A stretch of 64,000 nucleotides of DNA from Synergistaceae bacterium. GTDB taxonomy: Bacteria; Synergistota; Synergistia; Synergistales; Aminobacteriaceae. Where the stretch lies: positions 1-64,000 of the forward strand of contig JAFSKV010000018.1 of NCBI GenBank assembly GCA_017448795.1, read 5' to 3'. The notes under the pieces were generated by a model. It saw nothing but the letters and a program-made list of their open reading frames with translations, did no database searches and had not been told where the DNA came from. This document shows, piece after piece, positions 50,264 to 64,000 of the stretch. The position numbers and the translations under genes are program-made. Numbering within the stretch: position 1 is the stretch's first letter; every line of letters starts with the position of its first letter.

Positions 50264-50680
50264 TCACCGCCTGCGGGACTCTAGCCAGTCCTCCAGGATT
50301 ATCACCGCCGCTACTTTGTCGACACTCTTCCTGCGCTTCCTGCGTGACGTGTCAGCCTCAATCATCGCCCTCTGCGCTATCACCGTCGTGAACCTCTCAT
50401 CCCACATCACTAACTCGATGCCCGGATAATCCGCCCTCAGTCCGTCAACGATTGCTGAGACTCTCCCGGCCGCCTCGCTTGGTTTGCCGTCAGTCCTCAG
50501 AGGGAGTCCCACGACTACAACAGCAGGGTCATACTTCCTGACAGCCTCGCCGAAATCCTCCCGCCAAGTCCCAGCGTTCCAGACACCCAAGCCCTGAGCG
50601 ACAATCCGGGACGGATCAGACACAGCAGCACCAATCCTCACCGTCCCAATGTCAAGAGCAATAACCCGGCCGCTAGCCAT
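50264..50680 (-). CDS. ruvX: Holliday junction resolvase-like protein RuvX/YqgF
   Basis: RNase H-fold protein, 138 residues, linked to pre-16S rRNA processing and possibly to junction resolution. Motifs: IALDIGTVRIGAAVSD, VVVGLPLRTDGKPS and MWDERFTTVIAQ with the conserved acidic residues. It overlaps alaS by 8 bases; alaS-ruvX is a common pair. Confidence 0.94.
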   Translation of the reverse strand: MASGRVIALDIGTVRIGAAVSDPSRIVAQGLGVWNAGTWREDFGEAVRKYDPAVVVVGLPLRTDGKPSEAAGRVSAIVDGLRADYPGIELVMWDERFTTVIAQRAMIEADTSRRKRRKSVDKVAAVIILEDWLESRRR

Positions 50681-53312
50681 TAACCTGCGACTTCACGAGC
50701 TCACGAATCCGGGTCAGAGCCTCAGAAAGTTTCGCGCCATTCTTCCCGCCGCCTTGAGCGAGATTCTTGCGTCCCCCTCCTTTTCCGCCGAGAATAGCGC
50801 AGGCTTCCTTCACCAGAGTCCCGGCATTCACTCCCATGTTCACAGCTTTGTCATCGGCCATGACTGCGAGCTGGCACGACTCATCCTCACTGCTGACCGA
50901 CGCAAGCACAACGATATTCGCTTCAGGTCTCGCCCTTGCCTTGTCGCCAATATCACGGAGCATGTTGGCCGGAATGTCAGGGAATCTCCCTACCTGCAGC
51001 AACACACCGTTCACATCCTCACGCTCAAGGAAGCTCTCTGAGTTGTCGAGAAGCTCGCGCAACTTCGCCGCCTGAATCTGGGACTTCATGGCCTTCAAGT
51101 CGTCAACAAGAGCCTTAGCCCTGTCAGCAAGTCCGTCCTCATCCGTCGACAGCAGGGCGGTCATCGAGTTACGGAGCGCAAAGAGCTTCTGCATGATGGC
51201 AAGCACATTCATTCCTGTTGTCGCTAGGATTCTTCTTGTGCCTGACCCTATGCTTTCCTCGCGGAGAATCTTGAAGCTCCCGATGTCCCCTGTCCGTGAG
51301 ACGTGAAGCCCCCCGCAAAGCTCCATCGAGAATCCCGGAACGTCAACAACCCTCACAATGTCGCCGTATTTCTCATCAAAGAGCGCTTTTGCCCCAAGCG
51401 ACTGGGCTTCGTCCTTCGTGTGCTCGGTGATGTCGACGGGGATGTTGGCGAGGATTTGAGTGTTGACGATGCGCTCGGCCTCGGCAATCTCACTGTCTGT
51501 CACCGCTGAGTGATGGGTGAAGTCGAACCTGAGAATGTCGGGCGTAACGAGTGAGCCTGCCTGCCTGACATGACGGCCCAATACCCGCCCCAGTGCCTCG
51601 TGAAGCAAGTGTGTAGCCGTGTGGTTGCGGCGGATTGCGGAGCGTCTCTCATCGTCAGCAAAAGACATCACTTCATCCCCGACGCTGACAGTCCCGGGGG
51701 TCTCAAGCCTGACTGTGTGGACTGTGATTTTGCCGTGGGGTACTGTGTTGAAGACGGTCAATGTGAGGCCGTTGACCTTCATCGTGCCTGTGTCGCCGAC
51801 TTCCCCGCCCCTCTCAGCGTAGAACGGAGTCGTGTCGAGGACAACCTCAAATTCGCCCGCGCCTGTTACGGAGTCAACTCTGCCTTCTGGTGTGATGAGT
51901 GCTACTATCTTTCCGCTGTCTGCTGACTTGGTGTAGCCAGTGAAGGTAGTTGCGCCTGTCTCGTTCTCGATCTCAAGGTAGACATCCCCGGTGAGCGCGC
52001 TCTTCTTCTGCTTGCTTGAGGCTCTTGCGCGTTCTCTCTGTGCGTTCATGGCCGAAGTGAAGCCCGCCTCATCCAACGTGAAGCCGAGTTCCCCCGCCAT
52101 TTCCCGCGTGAGCTCAGGGGGGAAACCGTAAGTGTCATACAGCGTGAAGATGACATCTCCGGGAATTTCGGTGATGCCCTGCGATTTCAGGCGGGCTGTC
52201 TCGCTGTCGAAAAGCTCCGTGCCCTGTCGCAGCGTCTTGCCGAATTTCTCCTCCTCAAGCGAGATTATCTGCTCGATTACGGGACGCTGTGTAATGAGTT
52301 CGCGGTAAGGGTCGCCCATAATCTCAATCAGGATGGGCATGTACTCATTCAGGAACAGCCCCTCAAAGCCTAAGAGCCGTCCGAATCTCACAGCCCTTCT
52401 CAGGAGTCGGCGCAACACATAGCCCGGCCCGTCGTTCGAGGGAAGCACCCCGTCAGCAAGCATGAAGGCAACGCTCCTCACGTGGTCGGCAATGACTCTG
52501 ACGGCCATGTCATCACGCGGATTATTCCCGTAAGTTATCCCGGCTTTCTTGCAGGTGTGAGCGATTAACGGCGTGAAAAGGTCGGTCTCGTAGTCGGTAT
52601 CAACACCCTGAACAACGCTCGCGAGCCTCTCAAGCCCCATGCCTGTATCAATGTTCTTGTGAGGCAGCAGGGGAAGGCTTCCGTCTTTCTGGCGGTCGAA
52701 CTGTGTGAACACGAGATTCCATATCTCCATGTACCTGTCGCAGTCGCACCCAACCCCGCATGTAGGCTTTCCGCATGAATACTTCTCGCCGCGGTCATAG
52801 TAGATTTCACTGCACGGCCCGCAAGGCCCGGTATCTCCCATGAACCAATAATTGTCGTCCTGCCCGAAACGGTAAATCTTGCTCTCAGGGAGGAATTTCC
52901 GCCACGCATTGAAGGCTTCTTCATCATCAAGATAGATTGTCGCGTAGAGCCTCTCAGGTTCAAGCCCGACCCTCTCAGTGAGGAACTCCCACGCCCAAGA
53001 AATAGCCTCGTTCTTGAAGTAGCTTCCCCACGTGAAATTTCCCAGCATCTCGAAGAACGTGTGATGCCTCGCAGTCCTGCCGACGTTCTCGATGTCGTTT
53101 GTCCTCACACATTTCTGGCTGGTTACGACGCGGGGGTATTCGGGGGACTTTATGCCCAAGTAATACGGCTTGAGGGGAACCATCCCGGCAATCGTGAAGA
53201 GCAATGACGGGTCTTCAGGGACAAGGGAAAAACTTTGCAGGTGCTTCGAGCCTTTTTCCTCCCAGAACTTGATGAACATTTCGCGGAGTTCTGACGCTTT
53301 ACGGTACTGCAT
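50673..53312 (-). CDS. alaS: Alanine--tRNA ligase
   Basis: Charges tRNA-Ala; full length at 879 residues. The class II catalytic core (FWEEKGSKHLQSFSLVPEDPSLLFT...) is followed by the helical tRNA domain, the editing domain with zinc-binding HTATHLLH and CGGLHV (HxxxH and CxxxH), and a C-terminal coiled-coil/DHHA1 domain (GKGGGRKNLAQGG). It starts 3 bases after the slipin gene ends. Confidence 0.97.
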   Translation of the reverse strand: MQYRKASELREMFIKFWEEKGSKHLQSFSLVPEDPSLLFTIAGMVPLKPYYLGIKSPEYPRVVTSQKCVRTNDIENVGRTARHHTFFEMLGNFTWGSYFKNEAISWAWEFLTERVGLEPERLYATIYLDDEEAFNAWRKFLPESKIYRFGQDDNYWFMGDTGPCGPCSEIYYDRGEKYSCGKPTCGVGCDCDRYMEIWNLVFTQFDRQKDGSLPLLPHKNIDTGMGLERLASVVQGVDTDYETDLFTPLIAHTCKKAGITYGNNPRDDMAVRVIADHVRSVAFMLADGVLPSNDGPGYVLRRLLRRAVRFGRLLGFEGLFLNEYMPILIEIMGDPYRELITQRPVIEQIISLEEEKFGKTLRQGTELFDSETARLKSQGITEIPGDVIFTLYDTYGFPPELTREMAGELGFTLDEAGFTSAMNAQRERARASSKQKKSALTGDVYLEIENETGATTFTGYTKSADSGKIVALITPEGRVDSVTGAGEFEVVLDTTPFYAERGGEVGDTGTMKVNGLTLTVFNTVPHGKITVHTVRLETPGTVSVGDEVMSFADDERRSAIRRNHTATHLLHEALGRVLGRHVRQAGSLVTPDILRFDFTHHSAVTDSEIAEAERIVNTQILANIPVDITEHTKDEAQSLGAKALFDEKYGDIVRVVDVPGFSMELCGGLHVSRTGDIGSFKILREESIGSGTRRILATTGMNVLAIMQKLFALRNSMTALLSTDEDGLADRAKALVDDLKAMKSQIQAAKLRELLDNSESFLEREDVNGVLLQVGRFPDIPANMLRDIGDKARARPEANIVVLASVSSEDESCQLAVMADDKAVNMGVNAGTLVKEACAILGGKGGGRKNLAQGGGKNGAKLSEALTRIRELVKSQVNG

Positions 53313-53315
53313 GGA

Positions 53316-54113
53316 TTAGGCCTCCTTGTGAGTCAGCTTGTCGATGAACGGCTGAATCAGGTCAACAGGAATCGGGAAGAATGTTGTTGTGTTGCGCTCG
53401 CCGGAAATCTCCCGGATTGTCTGAAGGTAACGGAGCTGAAGTGTTACGGGTGATGACTCCATCTTGTGGGCAGCCTCTGAGAGTTTTTCCGCCGCCTGCA
53501 ATTCTCCTTCCGCCGCAATGATTTTCGCACGGCGTTCACGTTCTGCTTCTGCCTGACGCGCCATAGCCCGCTTCATTCCTTCGGGCAGCTCAAGCTCCTT
53601 CACCTCGACAGCGCTCACCTTGATTCCCCACGGGTCTGTGCGCTCATCGATGATGTTCTGCAGCTCCTGGTTGATCTTCTCGCGTGAGGACAATACTTCG
53701 TCAAGCTCAACAGCTCCCACAACCGAGCGGAGAGTCGTCTGTGCTAACTGGCTCGTGGCTACAATGTAATTCTCAACCTCGACAACACTTTTCGCCGGGT
53801 CAAGTACGCGGAAATACACGACGGCGTTCACCTTGATTGCGACGTTGTCCTTCGTGATTACTTCCTGAACTGGGACATCAAGCGTGAGTATTCTCAGGTC
53901 AACCGTAACAGAGCGGTCAATGAACGGGACAATGAAGACGATTCCGGGTCCGCGACTCCCTACAAGCCTTCCCAGCCTGAACAGGACTATGCGCCTGTAC
54001 TCAGGGATGACCTTGACGGCTGACGAAACCACAAGCAGGAGGATGAATCCTGCCACCATGATGCTGCCCAAGCTGGAAAAAATTGTGCCTATGTCTCTTG
54101 CGTCGATTACCAT
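53316..54113 (-). CDS. Slipin/stomatin family membrane protein
   Basis: A 265-residue SPFH protein: one N-terminal membrane segment ([19 protein letters not shown]), the SPFH domain (about 35-185, [28 protein letters not shown]) and a helical C-terminal part ([21 protein letters not shown]). Such proteins organise membrane microdomains and usually sit beside an NfeD-type protease; no nfeD gene is seen here. It lies in the dnaJ-acpS-slipin-alaS-ruvX run. Confidence 0.92.
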
Positions 54114-54118
54114 TGTGA

Positions 54119-54484
54119 TTATTCTCCTTCCTTGTCGATTACCACCATTGCGACGGCGTAATCTTTCTCGTGTGATATTGATACGAAAATTTTTGCTGAC
54201 TGAAGCGCGAGCCCGCCCGTGAGCCTGATGCTTGGGACACCGTCCGTGTGTACCAGTGAGAACTCCCGCCCGAACATGACGGTGTAGACTGACTTCCCCG
54301 ACGCTTTGCAGAAGGCCTCCCTTGCCGCAAACGCACCCGCATAGCTCTCGTAACGCCTTTCACCCTTTGACTCGCAGTACGAGATTTCTTCCGGGCTGAA
54401 TATCTCATCCCTGAAATGCCGGGACCGCAAAGCCTTCCTCATCCTGTCTACGCTGCACAAGTCAACGCCTATTCCTGAAACCAT
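54119..54484 (-). CDS. acpS: Holo-[acyl-carrier-protein] synthase
   Basis: Transfers the 4'-phosphopantetheine arm from CoA to acyl carrier protein. Its 121 residues carry [21 protein letters not shown] and [14 protein letters not shown], with the metal-binding Asp and Glu. The start overlaps the dnaJ end by 16 bases. Confidence 0.93.
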
Positions 54485-55608
54485 CGCTTGAACTTGCCCA
54501 GAATCCCGGAGTCCTCATCACTCACCGGAGCCTTCATCTCGTCAGCAAGAGACCTGATGATTTCGCGCTGTTTGTCGGTGAGCTTCTTGGGTATCTCAAT
54601 GTAGACGTGAACATAGAAATCCCCGGCGGCCTTCGAGTTGAGGCGGGGCATTCCCTTACCTTTGAGCTTGAGGACTTGGCCGTGCTGAGTTCCTGCCGGG
54701 ACTGTCAGGGTCTCTTCATGGCCGTCAAGGGTCTTGATTTTCGCCTCAGTGCCTAAGACAGCCTGCGGGTAAGTGAGGATGAGCGTTGTGTGCAAGTCCG
54801 CGCCGTCCCTCTCGAAATCCGGGTGAACCTCAACGTCGATAATCAGGTACAAATCACCGGGTGGGCCTCCGTTCACGCCAGCCTCGCCAGCTTCCGGAAC
54901 CCGCATCCTCATGTTGCTTGCGACTCCAGCCGGGATTTTGACCTCGATTGTGTGCTTCCTGCGGATGCGGCCTGTACCCTTGCACTCACTGCACTTCTCG
55001 CGGATGATTTTCCCCGTTCCATGACAATCAGGGCATGTGCTGACGCTCTCGAATATCCCGAACATTGTCTGCTGTCTCTGTCTCACGCTGCCCTGGCCGT
55101 TGCAGTGCGGGCATGTCTCAGGCTTAGTCCCCGGTTTTGCTCCTGTCCCGTTGCAGTCCTGGCATGTCTCGTACTTCATCACGTCAATATCACGCATAAC
55201 TCCCTTCATGGCCTCAAGGAGCGTAACGTGAACAACCTGCTCGATGTCGTCGCCCTGTCTCGGTGAGCTTGCTGACTGCCTGCGTGATGAGCCGAATCCC
55301 CCGAAGCCTCCGCCGAATGCCTGCGCGAAAATGTCCCCGAACAAGTCCCCCAAGTCCTGCCCGCCCATTCCCCCGAAAGGATTTCCTGTGTTTGCGTCGG
55401 CCGTGCCGAACTGGTCATATCTTGCGCGTTTCTCCGGGTCATTGAGGACGGAATAAGCCGCGTTGATTTTCTTGAACTTCTCTTCCGCTTCCTTGTCGCC
55501 GGGATGGGAGTCCGGGTGATACTGATGTACTAGCTTCCTGTAAGCCTTCTTGATATCCGCCTGTGAAGCGTCTCTTGGGACTTCAAGAATCGCGTATAAA
55601 TCCTCCAA
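54469..55608 (-). CDS. dnaJ: Chaperone protein DnaJ
   Basis: Hsp40 co-chaperone of DnaK. The J-domain (about 1-68) has YHPDSHPG; a Gly/Phe-rich stretch follows (FGGMGGQDLGDLFG...); four zinc repeats are intact (CQDCNGTG, CPHCNGQG, CPDCHGTG, CSECKGTG); the C-terminal substrate domain is complete. It has 379 residues, class A. The start is TTG at 55608, with GGGAGG about 11 bases upstream, matching the DnaJ N-terminus. dnaK and grpE are not here. Confidence 0.96.
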   Translation of the reverse strand: MEDLYAILEVPRDASQADIKKAYRKLVHQYHPDSHPGDKEAEEKFKKINAAYSVLNDPEKRARYDQFGTADANTGNPFGGMGGQDLGDLFGDIFAQAFGGGFGGFGSSRRQSASSPRQGDDIEQVVHVTLLEAMKGVMRDIDVMKYETCQDCNGTGAKPGTKPETCPHCNGQGSVRQRQQTMFGIFESVSTCPDCHGTGKIIREKCSECKGTGRIRRKHTIEVKIPAGVASNMRMRVPEAGEAGVNGGPPGDLYLIIDVEVHPDFERDGADLHTTLILTYPQAVLGTEAKIKTLDGHEETLTVPAGTQHGQVLKLKGKGMPRLNSKAAGDFYVHVYIEIPKKLTDKQREIIRSLADEMKAPVSDEDSGILGKFKRWFQE

Positions 55609-55624
55609 ACGTTGCTTGCCTCCC

Positions 55625-55656
55625 TAAAGAAATACCCCCCGCATTCACACGAGGGG
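55625..55656 (-). terminator. Terminator after the coiled-coil gene
   Basis: On the minus strand CCCCTCG pairs with CGGGGGG (one T-G) around an eight-base loop, followed by TATTTCTTT. It lies 21 bases past the coiled-coil gene and just before dnaJ. Confidence 0.65.
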
Positions 55657-55676
55657 CATAACAGTTATCCGTGTGC

Positions 55677-56975
55677 CTAGCGTGAAGTTGTCGTGCGTCT
55701 TCTCTGCTGTGTGTTTGTACTGCGCGCCGGGGCTTCAAGCCTGCGTTTCAGCTCCTGGGCGGGACGGTAATCGGGATTGATCTCAAGAGCCTTGTTCGCC
55801 CATTCAAGAGCCTCGTCACGCCTCCCGCGCAGTCTCTCAGCGGCAAGCCCGGCCCAGTAAGCGGCAAGATAATTCGCTGACGGCTCGGCCTCAAACGCTT
55901 TTGTGTACTCCTCCAGTGCCTGGGTCACCCTGTTTGAGCTGTAGCGTGAGTAAGCCTCCCTCTGCATGGCGATAAGCTCGCGGCGTTTCTCCGCTGGAAT
56001 CTTGTAGGTGAGGATCATCGCGGCTTCTGTCGAGCTGTTAGGGTCAAACGCCGGAAGCTCCTTGATGAGTGTCTCAAGCTCTGCAAGCTCCGCGGACTTC
56101 CTTGTTGCCTCAGCTTCGCGGTTCATGAGGGCTGTATCGCGCTCTCCAAGCGAGGCCGTCGCTTCCGTGAGCTTCTTGTTGTTGGCCTCAAGCTCTGACT
56201 CCCTTGCGGTGAGGTCTGCTTCTTTCCTGGCAAGCTCGGCTTCATGAGTGCTGACTTTCTCGGTTGACTCGGCAAGTTTCTTCTCTGCGTCGCTGACGGC
56301 TGATTCACGTGCGGCCACAGCTTCCTCACGTGCCTTTAGCGCGGCATCCTTTGACTGGAGCTCTGTCTCCCAAGCTGTGAGCCTGTTTCCTGTTGCCTCG
56401 CGTTCTGTGAGGGCCGCTTCACGCTTAACCAGGTCTGCCTCCCGCGCTGTGAGATTGTCCGCGGCTTCCTTCGCTGAGATTTTGGCGTTGAGCTCGGCTT
56501 CTCTGGCGGCAAGGTCAGCTTCACGCTTGGCAAGGTCTGCTTCCCTTCCGGCGAGTGCTGAGGATGCCTCTGTGAATCTCTGGCTTTCCTCGGCGAACTT
56601 CATCTCACGGCGGGCAAGTTCTGCCTCACGCGCTTTTAGGTCAAGCTCGCGCTTTGTCATCTGGTTTTCGCGGCCGAGAAGGGACGTGCTTATCCCGGAG
56701 ATTTTGCGGGACTCGGCGTTGATGCTTCTTGCTTTTGCGGCGGAATCTTTTTCCTGCTGGATGAGCTTCGCCTCCCGCCCGGCCAGCTCTTCAGCAAGCG
56801 CGTCAAGCTCGGCGGCTTTCTGGTTAAGGGCGTTCTCCCGCAGGGTCATCTCATCGGGCTGTTCATCCTGTGATACCGGCAGGGTGTCTGCGGAAACCGC
56901 TTCTGTTTCGTCAGCAAAAGCACAAGGAACAAGGCACATCACCAGCAAGATGACTAGTGCTGTCTTCCTGAACAT
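55677..56975 (-). CDS. Secreted coiled-coil protein with C-terminal TPR
   Basis: A 432-residue exported protein: signal peptide (MFRKTALVILLVMCLVPCAFA), then about 250 residues of near-continuous coiled coil built from a repeated seven-residue theme (variants of AxREAEL, such as AGREADLAKREADLAAREAEL), and a C-terminal helical repeat part resembling TPRs (YSRYSSNRVTQALEEYTKAF, then RRDEALEWANKALEINPDYR). I do not recognise a named family. Likely a periplasmic scaffold. TAAGGAGG precedes the ATG. Confidence 0.8.
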   Translation of the reverse strand: MFRKTALVILLVMCLVPCAFADETEAVSADTLPVSQDEQPDEMTLRENALNQKAAELDALAEELAGREAKLIQQEKDSAAKARSINAESRKISGISTSLLGRENQMTKRELDLKAREAELARREMKFAEESQRFTEASSALAGREADLAKREADLAAREAELNAKISAKEAADNLTAREADLVKREAALTEREATGNRLTAWETELQSKDAALKAREEAVAARESAVSDAEKKLAESTEKVSTHEAELARKEADLTARESELEANNKKLTEATASLGERDTALMNREAEATRKSAELAELETLIKELPAFDPNSSTEAAMILTYKIPAEKRRELIAMQREAYSRYSSNRVTQALEEYTKAFEAEPSANYLAAYWAGLAAERLRGRRDEALEWANKALEINPDYRPAQELKRRLEAPARSTNTQQRRRTTTSR

Positions 56976-57015
56976 GATAGTATCCTCCTTAATGCGTGGA
57001 ATTTTTCTGACCGTA

Positions 57016-57044
57016 ATTCTACAGTAACCGCAACTTTTTCACAA
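57016..57044 (-). promoter_or_regulatory. Promoter of the coiled-coil gene
   Basis: On the minus strand TTGTGA (57044-57039), a 17-base spacer and TAGAAT (57021-57016), 40 bases before the ATG. Confidence 0.55.
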
Positions 57045-57064
57045 ACAGCCCCGATTTTTCCGTG

Positions 57065-57070
57065 TATAAT
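57065..57070 (+). promoter_or_regulatory. -10 box for the DapA-family gene
   Basis: Perfect TATAAT 50 bases before the ATG, followed by a purine-rich ribosome-binding site (GAGAGGGG). No clear -35 at the usual distance, so an activator may be needed. Confidence 0.4.
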
Positions 57071-57120
57071 AAACATCACCGCGAAAAAAATATCACACAC
57101 AGAGAGGGGACATTATCCAC

Positions 57121-58011
57121 ATGTTCAAGCCAAAGGGTATAGTCATACCTGTAGTAACACCGTTTGATGACAGCGGCAAGTTCATGGAAGACGAGTACAA
57201 GAAGCTGCTCCAGTACTTCATCGACAACGGGATTCACGGGGTATTTCCTTTCGGGACATCGGGTGAGTTCTACGCGTTCGACAACGGATTTTACCGCCGC
57301 GTTCTGGAGGTAACCTGCGAATATGCGCGCGGCAAGATGGACATTTACGCGGGGGCCAACCACATAACGCCCAAGGGAGCGATAGAGCTGGCAAAAATCG
57401 CCGAGGAGTGCAAGGTTGACGCATTGAGTGTATTAACGCCGATGTTTGTAAGCCAGACACAGGCTGAGCTTGAGATCTACTACAGGAAGATTGCTGACGC
57501 TACTAGCCTTCCAATCGTCATCTACAACAACAAGCCCAAGACCAATGTTGGTGTTGCGCCTGAGACGATTCAGAAGCTGGCGAAAATCCCGAACATCATA
57601 GCCGTGAAGGACTCAACTGGGGACATGACCAACAGCGAGGAGTACATCCGCCTGACGAGGGACAACCCGGACTTTGATGTGCTGATGGGACGGGACACGC
57701 TGATTTACGCGGCGTTGTGGTACGGAGCTGCGGGGGCTATCACGTCGTGCGGGAACATTGCGCCGAGGATTGCTGTTGACATCTACGAGAACTTCAAGGC
57801 GGGGAAATGGGACGCGGCACTTGAGGCACAGTTCAAGCTGAGTGAGCTTCGTATAGCGACGAACATGGGGAGCTTCCCGGTGGTAATCAAGGAGGCACTG
57901 AACATGATAGGCTACAACGTGGGGAAATGCGCCGAGCCTATCCAGCCGTTGACGGCCGAACAGCACGCGAAACTTGAGGTTGTGCTGAAGAACATCGGCC
58001 TCCTGAAGTAG
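57121..58011 (+). CDS. DapA-superfamily aldolase/dehydratase, substrate unclear
   Basis: A 296-residue (beta/alpha)8 class I lyase. The Schiff-base lysine is Lys163 in IIAVKDSTGD and the proton-relay tyrosine is Tyr135 in VIYNNKP. The pyruvate-binding loop is GTSGEF instead of the GTTGES of true DapA, and the arginine that DapA uses for the second carboxylate is Lys140 (NNKPKTN). It is therefore more likely a sugar-acid aldolase or dehydratase than dihydrodipicolinate synthase. It stands alone with its own promoter region. A link to the garD pathway is possible but unproven. Confidence 0.85.
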   Translation: MFKPKGIVIPVVTPFDDSGKFMEDEYKKLLQYFIDNGIHGVFPFGTSGEFYAFDNGFYRRVLEVTCEYARGKMDIYAGANHITPKGAIELAKIAEECKVDALSVLTPMFVSQTQAELEIYYRKIADATSLPIVIYNNKPKTNVGVAPETIQKLAKIPNIIAVKDSTGDMTNSEEYIRLTRDNPDFDVLMGRDTLIYAALWYGAAGAITSCGNIAPRIAVDIYENFKAGKWDAALEAQFKLSELRIATNMGSFPVVIKEALNMIGYNVGKCAEPIQPLTAEQHAKLEVVLKNIGLLK

Positions 58012-58027
58012 GACACGACACACAAAA

Positions 58028-58062
58028 GCCCTCCTCCATCATGCGGGGAGGGTCTCACTTTT
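58028..58062 (+). terminator. Possible terminator after the DapA-family gene
   Basis: CCCTCC pairs with GGAGGG around a 12-base loop, followed by TCTCACTTTTC. The T tract is imperfect. It touches the 3' end of the endonuclease relic on the other strand. Confidence 0.5.
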
Positions 58063-58332
58063 CTGGACTCGGAAAGCCTGTGTATGTCCCGAAGCCGAGA
58101 AGGTACAGCGACATTGCGAACGATATACCCCTGCTGTCTGCTATACGCCTGATTTCGTCCGCTACTGTGTCATTCGGTACTGCTATGATATCCTCATCAC
58201 TCACAACCTGCTCCACAACATCAGGAAGTACCATGCACATCCTGTAGAAAGCATCAGCCTCGCCCGTTACAGCATTGTCTTGCGCACATGCTCCCTGAAG
58301 TCATGCTCAGAGATGAAATCAAGCGTCCACAT
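58055..58332 (-). pseudogene. Internally deleted Eco47II-type restriction endonuclease
   Basis: An ATG at 58332, overlapping the methyltransferase stop by 14 bases, opens a 21-codon frame MWTLDFISEHDFREHVRKT that ends at 58267. In the next frame the sequence goes on at once as VTGEADAFYRMCMVLPDVV and, near the stop at 58055, MSLYLLGFGTYTGF. The first piece resembles the N-terminus and the second the C-terminus of Eco47II-family type II endonucleases (about 240 residues). About 150 residues, including the catalytic centre, are missing and the join is out of frame. The family match is from memory of its terminal motifs and needs a profile search. Confidence 0.65.
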
Positions 58333-59332
58333 ATAATTTCTCCAGTCCCTTCCGTATTTCCATCGCAATGTCAAAGGCAAGGTTCACCGGGACAGCATTC
58401 CCCACCTGCCTGTACTGGCTCGCAACGCTCCCGGAAAACTGCCATTCGTCCGGGAAAGACTGTATGCGGGCGTTCTCCCTGACGCTGAACGGTCGTATCT
58501 CCAGCGGGTGGCATCGCTCGGTCTGCTTCTGAGTCGGTGAAGTCAGCACTGAGAGCGACGGCTCGTCCATGCTCATGCGGCGCAATATTCCGGCGCGTCC
58601 TCCTCCCAGGTTCCAGCAGCCCTTCATGTACTCACGTGCGGTTTTCTCCGGGAGATTCCGCCAGTTGCCGCCGGGGGGGATGAGACGGAACAGTTCCTTC
58701 TTGCGTTCAGAGTATCTTGCACAGGGGCTTTCCGGGACATTCTGGAGGACATCACGGAGTACCGGCCTGTATTCGCGTGGCTTGGGGAAATCTACAGTGA
58801 GTGTGAGACCTTTGCGCGTTCCTATTGTGATGAGACGCTCGCGCTTCTGTGCGTTGCCGTAATCCCACGCGTTGAGGATTTCCCGTTGCACCTTGTACCC
58901 GCATTCCCCGAAAACGTCCAGCATTGTCCTGTACGTCCTGCCCTTGTCATGAGAGAGGAGTCCGCGGACGTTCTCGAACAGGAAAACTTTAGGCTGCAAT
59001 TTCCGCAGAAACACAGCATAGTGGTAGAACAGAGTCCCCCTTGCGTCCTCAAAGCCGAGCTTCTTCCCCGCGTACGAGAATGCCTGACACGGCGCGCCCC
59101 CCGAAAGCAAGTCCAGCGCACCCGGCTCAATCCCGAAATGCTCAGGCAGATTCAGGCATGATACCTCGGCTATGTCAGCTTGGATGACGTTCCAGCCCGG
59201 ACGGTTGACCCTGAGAGTTGCCGCAGCATCCCTGTCAATCTCAACGAGTGCAAGAGGCTCAAAGCCTGCGCGTTCAAGACCAAGAGTAAGCCCGCCAGCC
59301 CCCGCGAAAAGTTCTATTGATGTGAGATTCAT
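58319..59332 (-). CDS. dcm: DNA (cytosine-5-)-methyltransferase
   Basis: C5-methyltransferase of 337 residues with all main motifs: FAGAGGLTLGLE (I), the catalytic Cys82 in GGAPCQAFSYAG (IV), ENVRGL (VI), NAQKRERLITIG (VIII) and RQVGNAVPVNLA (X). The target recognition domain lies around 190-280. A type II partner endonuclease is present only as a relic directly downstream, so this is now an orphan. If the relic is truly Eco47II/Sau96I-like, the site may be GGNCC or GGWCC; that is inference. Confidence 0.94.
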   Translation of the reverse strand: MNLTSIELFAGAGGLTLGLERAGFEPLALVEIDRDAAATLRVNRPGWNVIQADIAEVSCLNLPEHFGIEPGALDLLSGGAPCQAFSYAGKKLGFEDARGTLFYHYAVFLRKLQPKVFLFENVRGLLSHDKGRTYRTMLDVFGECGYKVQREILNAWDYGNAQKRERLITIGTRKGLTLTVDFPKPREYRPVLRDVLQNVPESPCARYSERKKELFRLIPPGGNWRNLPEKTAREYMKGCWNLGGGRAGILRRMSMDEPSLSVLTSPTQKQTERCHPLEIRPFSVRENARIQSFPDEWQFSGSVASQYRQVGNAVPVNLAFDIAMEIRKGLEKLYVDA

Positions 59333-59357
59333 GATGTCATAATTCTACCAGAGCGCA

Positions 59358-59389
59358 CAAAAAATCCCCCCGGCACAAACCGAGGGGAC
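59358..59389 (-). terminator. Rho-independent terminator after livF
   Basis: On the minus strand TCCCCTCGG pairs with CCGGGGGGA around a six-base loop, followed by TTTTTTG. It lies between livF and the dcm start. Confidence 0.85.
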
Positions 59390-59403
59390 TCACTCACCGC
59401 CTG

Positions 59404-60114
59404 CTACCCGCCCAGGTACGCCTTCCTGACCTCCTCAGACGCTAACAGCTCCTGCCCTGTCCCGGCCGTTGTAATCTTCCCGGTCTCCATGACGTACCCC
59501 CGGCTCGCAATACTCAGAGCCATCTGCGCGTTCTGCTCAACAAGAAGTATCGTCGCCCCTGTCCTGTGCAAGTCCGCGATGATCTCGAATATCTGCTCGA
59601 CAAGAATCGGTGCAAGACCCATCGACGGCTCATCAAGCATGAGGAGCTTCGGCCTGCTCATCAACGCCCGCCCCATCGCAAGCATCTGCTGCTCACCCCC
59701 TGAGAGCGTCCCAGCTGTCTGGTTCATTCTCTCCTTCAGTCGCGGGAAAAGCGAGTACACCTTCTCCATGTCCCCCGAAATGTCGTCGTTCTGCGTGAAC
59801 GCTCCCATCTCCAGATTCTCCTGCACCGTCATCTGCGCGAAGACTCTCCGTCCTTCCGGCACCTGCGCAAGACCGCGCTCAACTATCTTGTGTGGCGGGA
59901 CTTTCGCCATAGACTCGCCCAAGAATGACACGCTTCCTGTCGACGGGTGAAGAAGCCCGGATATCGTGTTGAGGGTTGTCGACTTGCCCGCGCCGTTCGC
60001 TCCGATTAACGTTACTATTTCGCCCTCGTAAACCTCGAACGAGATTCCCTTTATCGCGTGGATGCTCCCGTAGTAGACGTTGATGTTCTCTACCTTCAAG
60101 ACTGGCTCAGACAT
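59404..60114 (-). CDS. livF: Branched-chain amino acid ABC transporter ATPase LivF
   Basis: ATPase of a Liv-type importer, 236 residues. Walker A GANGAGKSTTL, the Q-loop/VPEGRRVFAQMTV segment typical of LivF, signature LSGGEQQMLAMGRAL, Walker B LLMLDEPSMGLAP. Last gene of livK-H-M-G-F; 2 bases after livG. Substrate may be branched-chain or other hydrophobic amino acids. Confidence 0.95.
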   Translation of the reverse strand: MSEPVLKVENINVYYGSIHAIKGISFEVYEGEIVTLIGANGAGKSTTLNTISGLLHPSTGSVSFLGESMAKVPPHKIVERGLAQVPEGRRVFAQMTVQENLEMGAFTQNDDISGDMEKVYSLFPRLKERMNQTAGTLSGGEQQMLAMGRALMSRPKLLMLDEPSMGLAPILVEQIFEIIADLHRTGATILLVEQNAQMALSIASRGYVMETGKITTAGTGQELLASEEVRKAYLGG

Positions 60115-60116
60115 GG

Positions 60117-60956
60117 TTACGCCTCCTTCTTCCTGCCTAAATACGCCTCAATGACAGCCGGGTTGCTCTGGATTTCGTCGGGTGTACCCTTCGCGATTAT
60201 GTGGCCGAAATTCAGCACACAAATTCCCTCGCAGATGTTCATCACAAGGCTCATGTCATGCTCAATGAGGATGATTGCTATCTGGAACATCTCGTGTACC
60301 TTCCTGATGTTGTCCATCAAGTCAGCAGTCTCAGACGGATTCATCCCCGCGGCAGGCTCATCAAGCAGTAACAGTGAAGGATTAGTCGCCAACGCCCGGA
60401 CAATCTCAAGCCTTCTCTGCGCACCGTAAGGCAATGACCCCGCAGGAACGTCCGCAACTCCCTGCATGTCGAAAATAGATAACAGCTTCAACGCCCGCCT
60501 ATGTGCCGCGACTTCCTCACGCCTGTAGTTCGGCAGACGCAAAATCGCGCTGGCCATGTTGTAGCGCATCTCGTTGTTCATGGCCGTCTTCACGTTGTCG
60601 ATTACGCTCATGTTGCGGAACAGCCTGATGTTCTGGAACGTCCGGGCAATTCCGGCCTTGTTGACCTGCATCGTGTTCATGCCGTGTGTGTCCTGGCCGT
60701 TGAGGAGGATTGTCCCGGTCGTGGGCTGGTAAACTTTCGTCAGCAGGTTGAAGACTGTAGTCTTGCCCGCCCCGTTTGGTCCGATTAGTCCGACAATCTC
60801 AGTCCGTCCCACAGTCAGGTTGAAATCCTCGACGGCCTTAATGCCTCCGAGAGTGATACCGAGTTTCACGCACTCAAGCACCGGTGCTCTTTCCGCGTCC
60901 CTCTCAGGAAGGATTGTTGTTGACGGGACTGGCACATATTTTGTTTTTTCCCTCAT
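60117..60956 (-). CDS. livG: Branched-chain amino acid ABC transporter ATPase LivG
   Basis: ATPase partner of LivF, 279 residues. Walker A GPNGAGKTTVF, GIARTFQNIRLF (the usual LivG Q-loop), Walker B LLLLDEPAAGMNP and H-loop LIEHDMSLV. It has an extra N-terminal stretch of about 25 residues before the ABC domain. The ATGA overlap with livM supports the start. The signature region is the divergent SLPYGAQRRLEIVRAL that is normal for LivG. Confidence 0.95.
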   Translation of the reverse strand: MREKTKYVPVPSTTILPERDAERAPVLECVKLGITLGGIKAVEDFNLTVGRTEIVGLIGPNGAGKTTVFNLLTKVYQPTTGTILLNGQDTHGMNTMQVNKAGIARTFQNIRLFRNMSVIDNVKTAMNNEMRYNMASAILRLPNYRREEVAAHRRALKLLSIFDMQGVADVPAGSLPYGAQRRLEIVRALATNPSLLLLDEPAAGMNPSETADLMDNIRKVHEMFQIAIILIEHDMSLVMNICEGICVLNFGHIIAKGTPDEIQSNPAVIEAYLGRKKEA

Positions 60957-62017
60957 GAGTTAGCCTCCTCCTTTCTGCGGAACGGGTTGAAGCGTGATAT
61001 GAAGTCCTTGATTTCCGCGTTGTTCGTGGCGAGCATCATCACAATCAGGACAATGGCATAAAGCAGCATCCTGTACTCCGAGAAGCCGCGCAGTTTTTCA
61101 GGCAATATCGTTAGGACAGCCGCCGCGATAATCCCGCCTAACATGTTCCCCTGCCCTCCCAGCACCACGAAGACCAGTATCAATATTGACGTGTTGAAGT
61201 CGAACTTGTTTGCTACGATTGTCGAGTAGTTCATCGCGAACAACGCCCCCGCCGCCCCGGCCAATGCCGCCGACGTAACGAACGCCATCATCTTGTACTT
61301 TGTTATGTCGAGTCCGATGCTCTCAGCCGCTATCCTGTCATCACGTATGGCCATGAACGCCCGCCCTGAACGTGAGTTGACGAGGTTGAAGACTATCATC
61401 AGCGATATGAACAGCAATATTGCGCCCGCCGGGAATGTCGCGATTTTCTGGATGCCGCTGATTCCCATTGGCCCGCGGATTATGAGCTTGCCGCCGGGTA
61501 AGAGCCTCGTTGTGTCAGCTAACATGCTGAAGTGAAGACCGCCTGAATCGACTCCCAAGTAAAAATTGTTGAGTATGCTCTTGATGATTTCGCCGAAAGC
61601 CAGCGTAACAATCGCCAGATAGTCCCCCTTCAGCCTCAAGACAGGAATCCCGATGATGAACCCTGCCGCCGCCGCAAAAATTGCCGCAACAATCATCGCA
61701 ACAGCCAGCCTCACGGGAGCGAACGGGATAATCCCCTGCAAGAGTACAGCCGCCGCCACGCCTGAGAATGCCCCGACAGACATAAAGCCCGCATGACCCA
61801 GCGACAACTCACCGAGAATCCCGACAACGAGATTCAGCGATACGGCCATGACCATATAGGCGCAAATCGGCACGAGCATTCCGCGCATTGACGAGCTGAG
61901 AAACTTTGTCGAACTCATCACCTGGCATATAACATACGCGACAATCACGACCGCATACGTGAGATAGATTCTTCTTGCCTCGACGCGCTTCAAGTTTATG
62001 AGTCTTCGCATTGTCAT
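60953..62017 (-). CDS. livM: Branched-chain amino acid ABC transporter permease LivM
   Basis: A 354-residue inner-membrane permease with 8 to 10 hydrophobic helices and the family block LVVGILGELSLGHAGFMSVGAF, plus the coupling segment RDDRIAAESIGLDITKYKMMAFV. It starts 2 bases before the livH stop region and overlaps livG by ATGA. Confidence 0.95.
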   Translation of the reverse strand: MTMRRLINLKRVEARRIYLTYAVVIVAYVICQVMSSTKFLSSSMRGMLVPICAYMVMAVSLNLVVGILGELSLGHAGFMSVGAFSGVAAAVLLQGIIPFAPVRLAVAMIVAAIFAAAAGFIIGIPVLRLKGDYLAIVTLAFGEIIKSILNNFYLGVDSGGLHFSMLADTTRLLPGGKLIIRGPMGISGIQKIATFPAGAILLFISLMIVFNLVNSRSGRAFMAIRDDRIAAESIGLDITKYKMMAFVTSAALAGAAGALFAMNYSTIVANKFDFNTSILILVFVVLGGQGNMLGGIIAAAVLTILPEKLRGFSEYRMLLYAIVLIVMMLATNNAEIKDFISRFNPFRRKEEANS

Positions 62018-62019
62018 GA

Positions 62020-62901
62020 TTACACCTTCTCCTGCGTCATTTTTCCGAGCAATCCCGCCGGCTTCACCAGCAGAACCACAATCAGCACCCCGAACACGAC
62101 CGCGTCCGAGAGCTGGCTCGAAATGTAGGCCTTCGCGAAAATCTCAATCACTCCCAGCATGAGTCCGCCCAAGAACGCCCCCGGTATCGACCCGATTCCC
62201 CCGAACACAGCCGCAGTGAATGCCTTGATGCCTGGCAATGCTCCCGTTGTCGGCATGAGAGTCGGGTACGCAGAACACAGCAGCGCCCCCGCAACCGCCG
62301 CCAATCCTGAACCAATCGCGAACGTGAGCGAGATTGTAGCGTTGACGTTGATACCCATGAGCTGGGCTGCCCCTTTGTCCTCAGAACACGCGCGCATTGC
62401 CTTGCCCATTTTGGTTTTGCCGACAAAGAGAGTCAGTGCCGCCATTATCACGAGACACACGCCGATTGTGAGAGCTGTAATGTGTGAGACCGATAACTCA
62501 CCGTCAAAGAGCTTGAACGAGCCGCGCCCAATGATTGACGGGAAGACTTTAGGGTTTGACGACCAGAGGAGGAGGGCTGTGTTCTGGAGGAAGTAGCTCA
62601 TGCCTATAGCCGTAATGAGAACTGCTAGGGATGGTGCCTGACGCAGGGGCTTGTAGGCCAGACGCTCGACGATGATACCGAGCATGGTACACACAGCCAT
62701 AGCTATTATCACGCCGAGAAACGGGGGAAGCTCATACCGCACTACCATGTAGAAGCAGACATAAGCCCCGACCATAATCACATCACCGTGAGCGAAGTTG
62801 AGCATCTTTGCGATCCCGTAGACCATCGTGTAGCCGAGGGCGATTATCGCGTAGATGCTTCCGAGACTTATTCCGCTTATAAAGAAATTCAGGAATGTCA
62901 T
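62020..62901 (-). CDS. livH: Branched-chain amino acid ABC transporter permease LivH
   Basis: A 293-residue inner-membrane permease. Typical LivH motifs: GSIYAIIALGYTMVYGIAKMLNFAHGD near the N-terminus and GIKAFTAAVFGGIGSIPGAFLGG in the C-terminal half. AAGGAGG lies 13 bases upstream of the ATG. It is separated from livK by 242 bases that hold a hairpin and a small ORF. Confidence 0.95.
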   Translation of the reverse strand: MTFLNFFISGISLGSIYAIIALGYTMVYGIAKMLNFAHGDVIMVGAYVCFYMVVRYELPPFLGVIIAMAVCTMLGIIVERLAYKPLRQAPSLAVLITAIGMSYFLQNTALLLWSSNPKVFPSIIGRGSFKLFDGELSVSHITALTIGVCLVIMAALTLFVGKTKMGKAMRACSEDKGAAQLMGINVNATISLTFAIGSGLAAVAGALLCSAYPTLMPTTGALPGIKAFTAAVFGGIGSIPGAFLGGLMLGVIEIFAKAYISSQLSDAVVFGVLIVVLLVKPAGLLGKMTQEKV

Positions 62902-62919
62902 AAGAGAATTGTTGCCTCC

Positions 62920-62979
62920 TTATTCGTGTGAGATTACTGCATTGTGAGTCGTGAGAAGAATACCTGCCCCCTTAGTCAT
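62920..62979 (-). CDS. Possible 19-codon ORF upstream of livH
   Basis: ATG at 62979 follows AAGGAGGCAAA, a perfect Shine-Dalgarno at short spacing. It encodes MTKGAGILLTTHNAVISHE and stops with a TAA that touches the livH Shine-Dalgarno. The two ribosome-binding regions are near copies (CG-x-ATAAGGAGGCAA). It may be a leader or coupling peptide, or a relic of a duplicated start region; the I, L, L, V, I content is suggestive only. Confidence 0.4.
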   Translation of the reverse strand: MTKGAGILLTTHNAVISHE

Positions 62980-62995
62980 TTTGCCTCCTTATACG

Positions 62996-63041
62996 AAAAG
63001 AGCAGCCGGAAATTTTTTGTGGCCGACATTCCCGACTGCCC
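62996..63041 (-). terminator. Attenuator-like terminator between livK and livH
   Basis: On the minus strand GGGCAGTCGGGAA pairs with TTTCCGGCTGCTC (13 bp with three G-U pairs) around a 16-base loop, followed by TTTTCG. It would end part of the transcripts after livK and so keep the binding protein more abundant than the permease and ATPases. Confidence 0.65.
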
Positions 63042-63065
63042 GTGAAATTCAAGTGTTCAGTGTAG

Positions 63066-63110
63066 AGTGAGTAGCGTGTGGTTTCTGCTTCCCGCTAAAC
63101 ACTACTCACT
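63066..63110. repeat. Inverted repeat downstream of livK
   Basis: AGTGAGTAG (63066-63074) is the exact reverse complement of CTACTCACT (63102-63110), with a 27-base loop. The right arm lies in the heptamer repeat array. Confidence 0.5.
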
Positions 63111-63148
63111 ACCCACTACCCACTACCCACTAACCACTAACCACTAGT
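63100..63148. repeat. Seven tandem copies of a heptanucleotide (CACTACC type)
   Basis: Unit by unit the array reads CACTACT, three CACTACC, two CACTAAC and CACTAGT. The last unit contains the livK stop codon (TAG on the minus strand). It is a short microsatellite-like array, unlike anything else in the window. Confidence 0.9.
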
Positions 63149-64000
63149 CCAGACCGACATACGCGCCGTCTTTGATGACCATGCCCTTGGGGTCTTTGCT
63201 GACTTCACCGTTCTTTGCCCACCTGACATTTTCGCCTGTTACTCCGTTGAATGTCATCGTTGTGAACTGCTCAATCATCTTCTGGCAGAGTGTCTCAGCG
63301 TCCATATCGGGGGTCGCTTTTGCCTGAGTGAGTGCCTGATAGTACGCGTAAACGCAATCATAGCCATCCGCCGCAAACTGGTTCGGAATCTCGCCGTACT
63401 TCTCCTGATACTTCTTGACGAAATTCTGAGTCCTCTCGTCCTTTGCGTCAGCGTTGAACGGTGTTAGCAACATTACGCCTTCAGCAAGCGATTTGTCGAA
63501 GCCCTCCATCGTCAAAATACCGTCCATTCCGTCAACCCCAAACCACTTGGGAGCATAACCCATCGCCTGAGCCTGAGCGAGGATGAGGCTTGCGGGCTGG
63601 TAGTACATCGGGAGGAATACGAGTTCCGCGCCCTTCTCCTTCGCGTCTGTGAGCTGGACGGAAAAATCTGTGTCGTTGCCGTCCGCAAAAGCTGTCTCGC
63701 TCACGATTTCGAGGCCGAACGAGGGGGCTTTCTCGACGAACGTATCACGGATGCCCTTCGAGTAGACATCATCATTCTTCCAGATAACGGCGACTTTCTT
63801 GGCAAAACCTTTCTCGCCGATATACTGAGCTGACGCGCTGCCCTGGTTGGGGTCAACAAAGCACATCTGGAACACGTTATCCTTGCCTTCTGTTACTGCT
63901 GCTGATGATGCTGACGGTGTGAGGGCAAAAATCCTGTCCGCGAAATTCTCGGCTGCTGTTGCCTCAGCGGGCTTTGACGTTACCGAGCCTAAAGAGACCT
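63144..64000 (-). CDS. livK: Branched-chain amino acid ABC transporter substrate-binding protein (5' end outside window)
   Basis: C-terminal three quarters of a type I periplasmic binding protein of the LivJ/K family. The frame is open to the window edge, starting within SLGSVTSKPA. Family segments include YIGEKGFAKKVAVIWKNDDVYSKG, FLPMYYQPASLILAQAQAMGY and KKYQEKYGEIPNQFAADGYDCVYAY. It is the first gene of livK-H-M-G-F. The stop lies inside the heptamer array. Confidence 0.93.
   Translation of the reverse strand, partial: VSLGSVTSKPAEATAAENFADRIFALTPSASSAAVTEGKDNVFQMCFVDPNQGSASAQYIGEKGFAKKVAVIWKNDDVYSKGIRDTFVEKAPSFGLEIVSETAFADGNDTDFSVQLTDAKEKGAELVFLPMYYQPASLILAQAQAMGYAPKWFGVDGMDGILTMEGFDKSLAEGVMLLTPFNADAKDERTQNFVKKYQEKYGEIPNQFAADGYDCVYAYYQALTQAKATPDMDAETLCQKMIEQFTTMTFNGVTGENVRWAKNGEVSKDPKGMVIKDGAYVGLD

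Follow-up and report, generated by a model that had tools for sequence, protein, structure and literature searches.

Eco47II, a type II restriction endonuclease, has GGNCC as its target. That restriction-modification (RM) systems decay into orphan methyltransferases is usually deduced by comparing distant relatives. Orphans located beside degraded endonuclease genes have been widely reported (Seshasayee et al., as cited in PMC6471742), and solitary methyltransferases can reduce the harm done by RM systems of the same target (PMC3874152). Among related enzymes, EcoO109I cuts RGGNCCY and its relative AvaII cuts GGWCC (PMC7337904). Here, we analyzed a contig of a metagenome-assembled genome (MAG) of Synergistaceae; the whole stretch of 64,000 nucleotides is referred to as the window. 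Eco47II-family RM operons, in which PF09553 and TIGR00675 proteins are paired, resemble the window in gene order, in overlapping or abutting genes and in both protein families. In these operons the endonuclease is whole, including at the same locus of a congeneric Synergistaceae MAG from goat reticulum (G011, one of 43 genomes of the genus compared), whereas in the window the endonuclease gene is broken and no enzyme can be made from it. We conclude, with a probability of about 0.93, that an Eco47II (GGNCC-type) type II RM operon lost its endonuclease through one internal 517-bp deletion, known from one genome of the species, and that the methyltransferase was kept.

The retained gene (58319-59332, minus strand) codes for an intact, orphaned C5-cytosine DNA methyltransferase of 337 amino acids, as judged by profile matches, motifs and alignment with G011. 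In profile searches, its product matched PF00145 (E 1.1e-81) and TIGR00675 (E 1.3e-73, above the family cut-off) over the full length and with the catalytic motifs. The closest solved structures were M.HaeIII (1dct, E 4.5e-44), which was the best match, and M.HhaI; motifs I, IV (PCQ), VI (ENV), VIII, IX and X could be aligned with those of M.HaeIII. The window and G011 methyltransferases are 94% identical, and the target-recognition part is invariant across five members of the genus. The orphan enzyme probably still methylates GGNCC sites.

Directly after this gene, the original prediction had described a 21-codon frame overlapping the methyltransferase and then about 70 codons out of frame, and both are present. 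The first (58267-58332, minus strand) consists of 21 codons, MWTLDFISEHDFREHVRKTML, and then TAA. Its start at 58332 lies inside the methyltransferase end, giving a 14-nt overlap that also occurs in G011, and 20 of its 21 residues are those of G011 endonuclease residues 1-21. The second (58055-58270, minus strand) comprises 71 codons and a stop (V194-K264); it is out of frame with the first, contains no internal stop or indel, differs from the G011 protein by 3 of 71 amino acids and also has a PF09553 match. Identity to G011 DNA was 92% before the junction and 94% beyond it (blastn and MAFFT), the two parts being separated by a single net gap of 517 bp, and the endonuclease gene is 278 nt long in the window vs 795 nt in G011. 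The junction was located at 58270-58273 (minus strand), where the blastn pieces met with a 4-base overlap. Since 517 bases correspond to 172 codons plus one base, the reading frame changes here. The loss is thus about 172 codons; the deletion itself had been foreseen, but its size had been put at roughly 150 residues. As at most ~4 bp are common to the junction ends, the event looks like illegitimate recombination.

As proposed, and as the alignment supports, a single Eco47II-family endonuclease gene accounts for both fragments, which are its two ends. Its intact G011 homolog, at the same locus and in the same operon, matches PF09553 with E 3.5e-88 and bears out the predicted family name. Chance can be excluded, on sequence grounds, as a source of the two-frame pattern, the end-to-end alignment with the G011 DNA being the decisive evidence. 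Searching PF09553 with the two separate fragments, as had been suggested, gave no match, the fragments being too short for a Pfam scan, but scanning the whole window genome (G000) with the profile gave a single match at 58270-58199 (profile positions 179-202 of 202, E 0.007), which covers only 24 positions and is under the curated cut-off. This relic was the only PF09553 match in the 98% complete assembly, and no second copy of the cognate endonuclease was found there.

In G011, the same operon lies between livF and dapA and contains an intact RE_Eco47II endonuclease of 264 amino acids. D98, E121 and K123 of this protein are invariant in 29 aligned endonuclease relatives. Its AlphaFold model (mean pLDDT 83) shows the strand order of PD-(D/E)XK nucleases, with E121-x-K123 at a strand end as in these enzymes, and the three residues are likely the catalytic ones of the predicted PD-(D/E)XK core. 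A search of solved structures with the sequence profile of the endonuclease gave nothing meaningful, and a fold search was required; the best match of the model was EcoO109I (E 7e-5, TM about 0.46-0.48). The sites of EcoO109I and AvaII fit the GGNCC target of Eco47II, and the fold match is consistent with GGNCC as the target of the operon. In the window, residues 22 to ~193 have been deleted, including D98, E121 and K123, and an active endonuclease is therefore not possible. In terms of mechanism, a single 517-bp deletion left the first 21 and the last 71 endonuclease codons, shifted the frame and took the whole predicted catalytic core. The original prediction that cutting was lost and methylation kept agrees with the missing core and the intact methyltransferase frame, with activity of the latter presumed.

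It could be argued that the assembler skipped 517 bp, for example in a mixture of strains, and that the genome really carries an intact endonuclease. The source genome is indeed fragmented into 86 contigs, with 1.65% estimated contamination. However, the junction is interior to the 64-kb contig and its flanks are collinear, the repeats at the junction (~4 bp at most) are too short to mislead an assembler, the relic carries its own substitutions beside the junction, and no further PF09553 piece occurs anywhere in the assembly. An artefact is thus very unlikely. We also considered that the pieces might be functional small genes reused after the deletion, such as a 61-aa protein starting from an in-frame ATG at 58240, given that the 3' frame is open over 71 codons with few amino-acid changes. 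This is hardly credible: every residue aligns with the ends of the intact endonuclease, a recent deletion accounts for the scarcity of changes, and separate small genes were seen at this locus in none of the relatives. Of the two outcomes named beforehand as refuting the deletion reading, neither this one nor the lack of any family match was borne out.

The age of the deletion, as a loss from an intact operon, could be estimated from the relic itself. Its 71 codons differ from G011 by 7 synonymous and 3 non-synonymous changes (dS 0.16, dN 0.019). Had constraint on it been absent throughout the window branch, at least ~13 non-synonymous changes would be expected there (164.5 sites x half of dS 0.16), and the Poisson chance of three or fewer is ~0.001. 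By these counts, the deletion postdates the split of the window and G011 lineages, and it probably falls in the later half of the time since that split. The observation bears on a further possibility, that the orphan methyltransferase has been domesticated and is under selection, either in gene regulation or in shielding the cell from other bacteria's GGNCC systems; both kinds of role had been raised in the original prediction. Among gut and rumen Bacillota, intact Eco47II-type operons are common, and the low dN/dS of the methyltransferase between the window and G011 (0.11; dS 0.275, dN 0.031) would fit such a role. However, because the deletion is young, most of this divergence predates it, so the ratio reflects the operon period and says little about the orphan period. 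On the window branch, codon positions 1 and 2 gave a weak hint of faster change with one outgroup (15 vs 4 changes), which was absent at position 3 (15 vs 22), and a relative-rate test for relaxed selection on the methyltransferase was not significant for amino acids. Domestication appears rather unlikely.

Avoidance of GGNCC sites, an approach taken from PMC4687349, was tried as a test of dating and specificity and was rejected. The observed/expected ratio was 0.22-0.41 in all six genus genomes sampled, and GGNCC was equally rare in the window genome and in congeners lacking the system, four of the six having no endonuclease match. GGNCC, GGWCC, CCWGG, GATC and GTNAC were all strongly under-represented in these six genomes, with or without this RM system. 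Since system-free genomes avoid GGNCC, and other palindromes are avoided too, the signal does not discriminate.

The operon lies in a variable locus bordered by livF (59404-60114, minus strand) on the left and a dapA-like gene (57121-58011, plus strand) on the right, whose positions are conserved in the six relatives examined. A hairpin read from the sequence (58028-58053, unstranded; one copy here) is common to the convergent ends of the operon and dapA. The cargo of the gap (58012-59403 in the window) varies among relatives in which the two border genes are close together: a fused protein of 1117-1129 amino acids with HSDR_N, N6 methylase and two specificity domains, resembling a type I RM system, in G002, G025 and G041, a DUF4417 gene in G040 and an ankyrin-repeat protein in G015. 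The gap is thus a turnover site in the genus. In G011, a 496-codon remnant from the 3' end of the fused type I-like gene (L148:3288-4830) comes right after the Eco47II operon. The dapA hairpin stands on both sides of this remnant as identical 33-bp copies, and displacement of one RM system by another seems to have taken place here. The window shows no trace of the fused gene; either it lost the remnant or G011 regained it. Identity to G011 (window 50680-64000) was ~91% on the livF side vs 85% on the dapA side, with 77-88% elsewhere; the step across the locus is possibly a recombination boundary. As a sign of recent exchange of the locus, flank identity was suggestive only and was set aside.

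Loss of the endonuclease is the exception in this family. The best 80 relatives of the methyltransferase were taken from a collection of 84,980 species. In 75 of these, the gene immediately downstream codes for a full-length endonuclease, and the other five comprise one truncated endonuclease (L060), one cut by a contig end (L078) and three loci without it (L047, L073 and L090). The endonuclease family was detected in 6 of 188 genomes of the phylum, all from the genus of the window; it is intact in G011, G024 and G042, which like the 75 wider relatives retain the complete system, and damaged in the window, G033 and G031, in each case differently. In G033, a single MAG, the endonuclease is frameshifted within a stretch of eight A (L007:2535-2700) and the methyltransferase is intact; decay, a sequencing error or a reversible slip (phase variation) could each explain the shift. 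In G031, also a single MAG, the endonuclease has an internal deletion that keeps the frame and lies between two similar stretches coding for RDKA, and the methyltransferase has a TGA at codon 121 (L006:1501-2600), possibly representing a later stage of decay. In a tree of 83 methyltransferases, at least three label changes were needed for the genus, and the nearest neighbors were from Bacillota, so several horizontal acquisitions are likely.

In the probable order of decay, which is also the one to be expected, the cutter went first and the methylase stayed, because loss of the methylase first would expose the cell's own chromosome to the endonuclease. The orphan may now drift towards loss, or may passively protect the cell from invading GGNCC systems. 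A broader idea is a cycle of recurrent uptake of GGNCC-type RM operons from Bacillota by the genus and recurrent loss of the cutter alone, driven by the shielding that the leftover methyltransferase gives cells against the same systems in their neighbors. We regard this cycle as unlikely; if true, what is seen at the locus would be a recent step in it. Independent of this, one genus displays the parent state, the precise deletion and stages that are later or parallel (G033 and G031), so that it could be traced in which order the parts are lost and what becomes of the methyltransferase. It should also be noted for annotation that a GGNCC methyltransferase in the window genome does not imply GGNCC restriction.

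Thus, the window contains a clear and young example of the well-known decay of RM systems, in a rumen-associated genus. The orphans of Seshasayee et al., so far as described in the citing paper, are of the same kind, with an intact methyltransferase and a recognizable endonuclease relic; compared with that description, the window case shows precisely what was deleted and from which intact parent state. EcoO109I has the closest solved fold to the G011 endonuclease, but sequence identity is only 11-12% and its recognition site (RGGNCCY) is longer than GGNCC. The DCM4/Eco47II system of Metamycoplasma hominis (GGNCC, predicted) has the same pairing of a methyltransferase with an Eco47II homolog (PMC10305163). 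Unlike the window operon, however, that system is complete, and methylation was assigned to it cautiously (PMC10305163).
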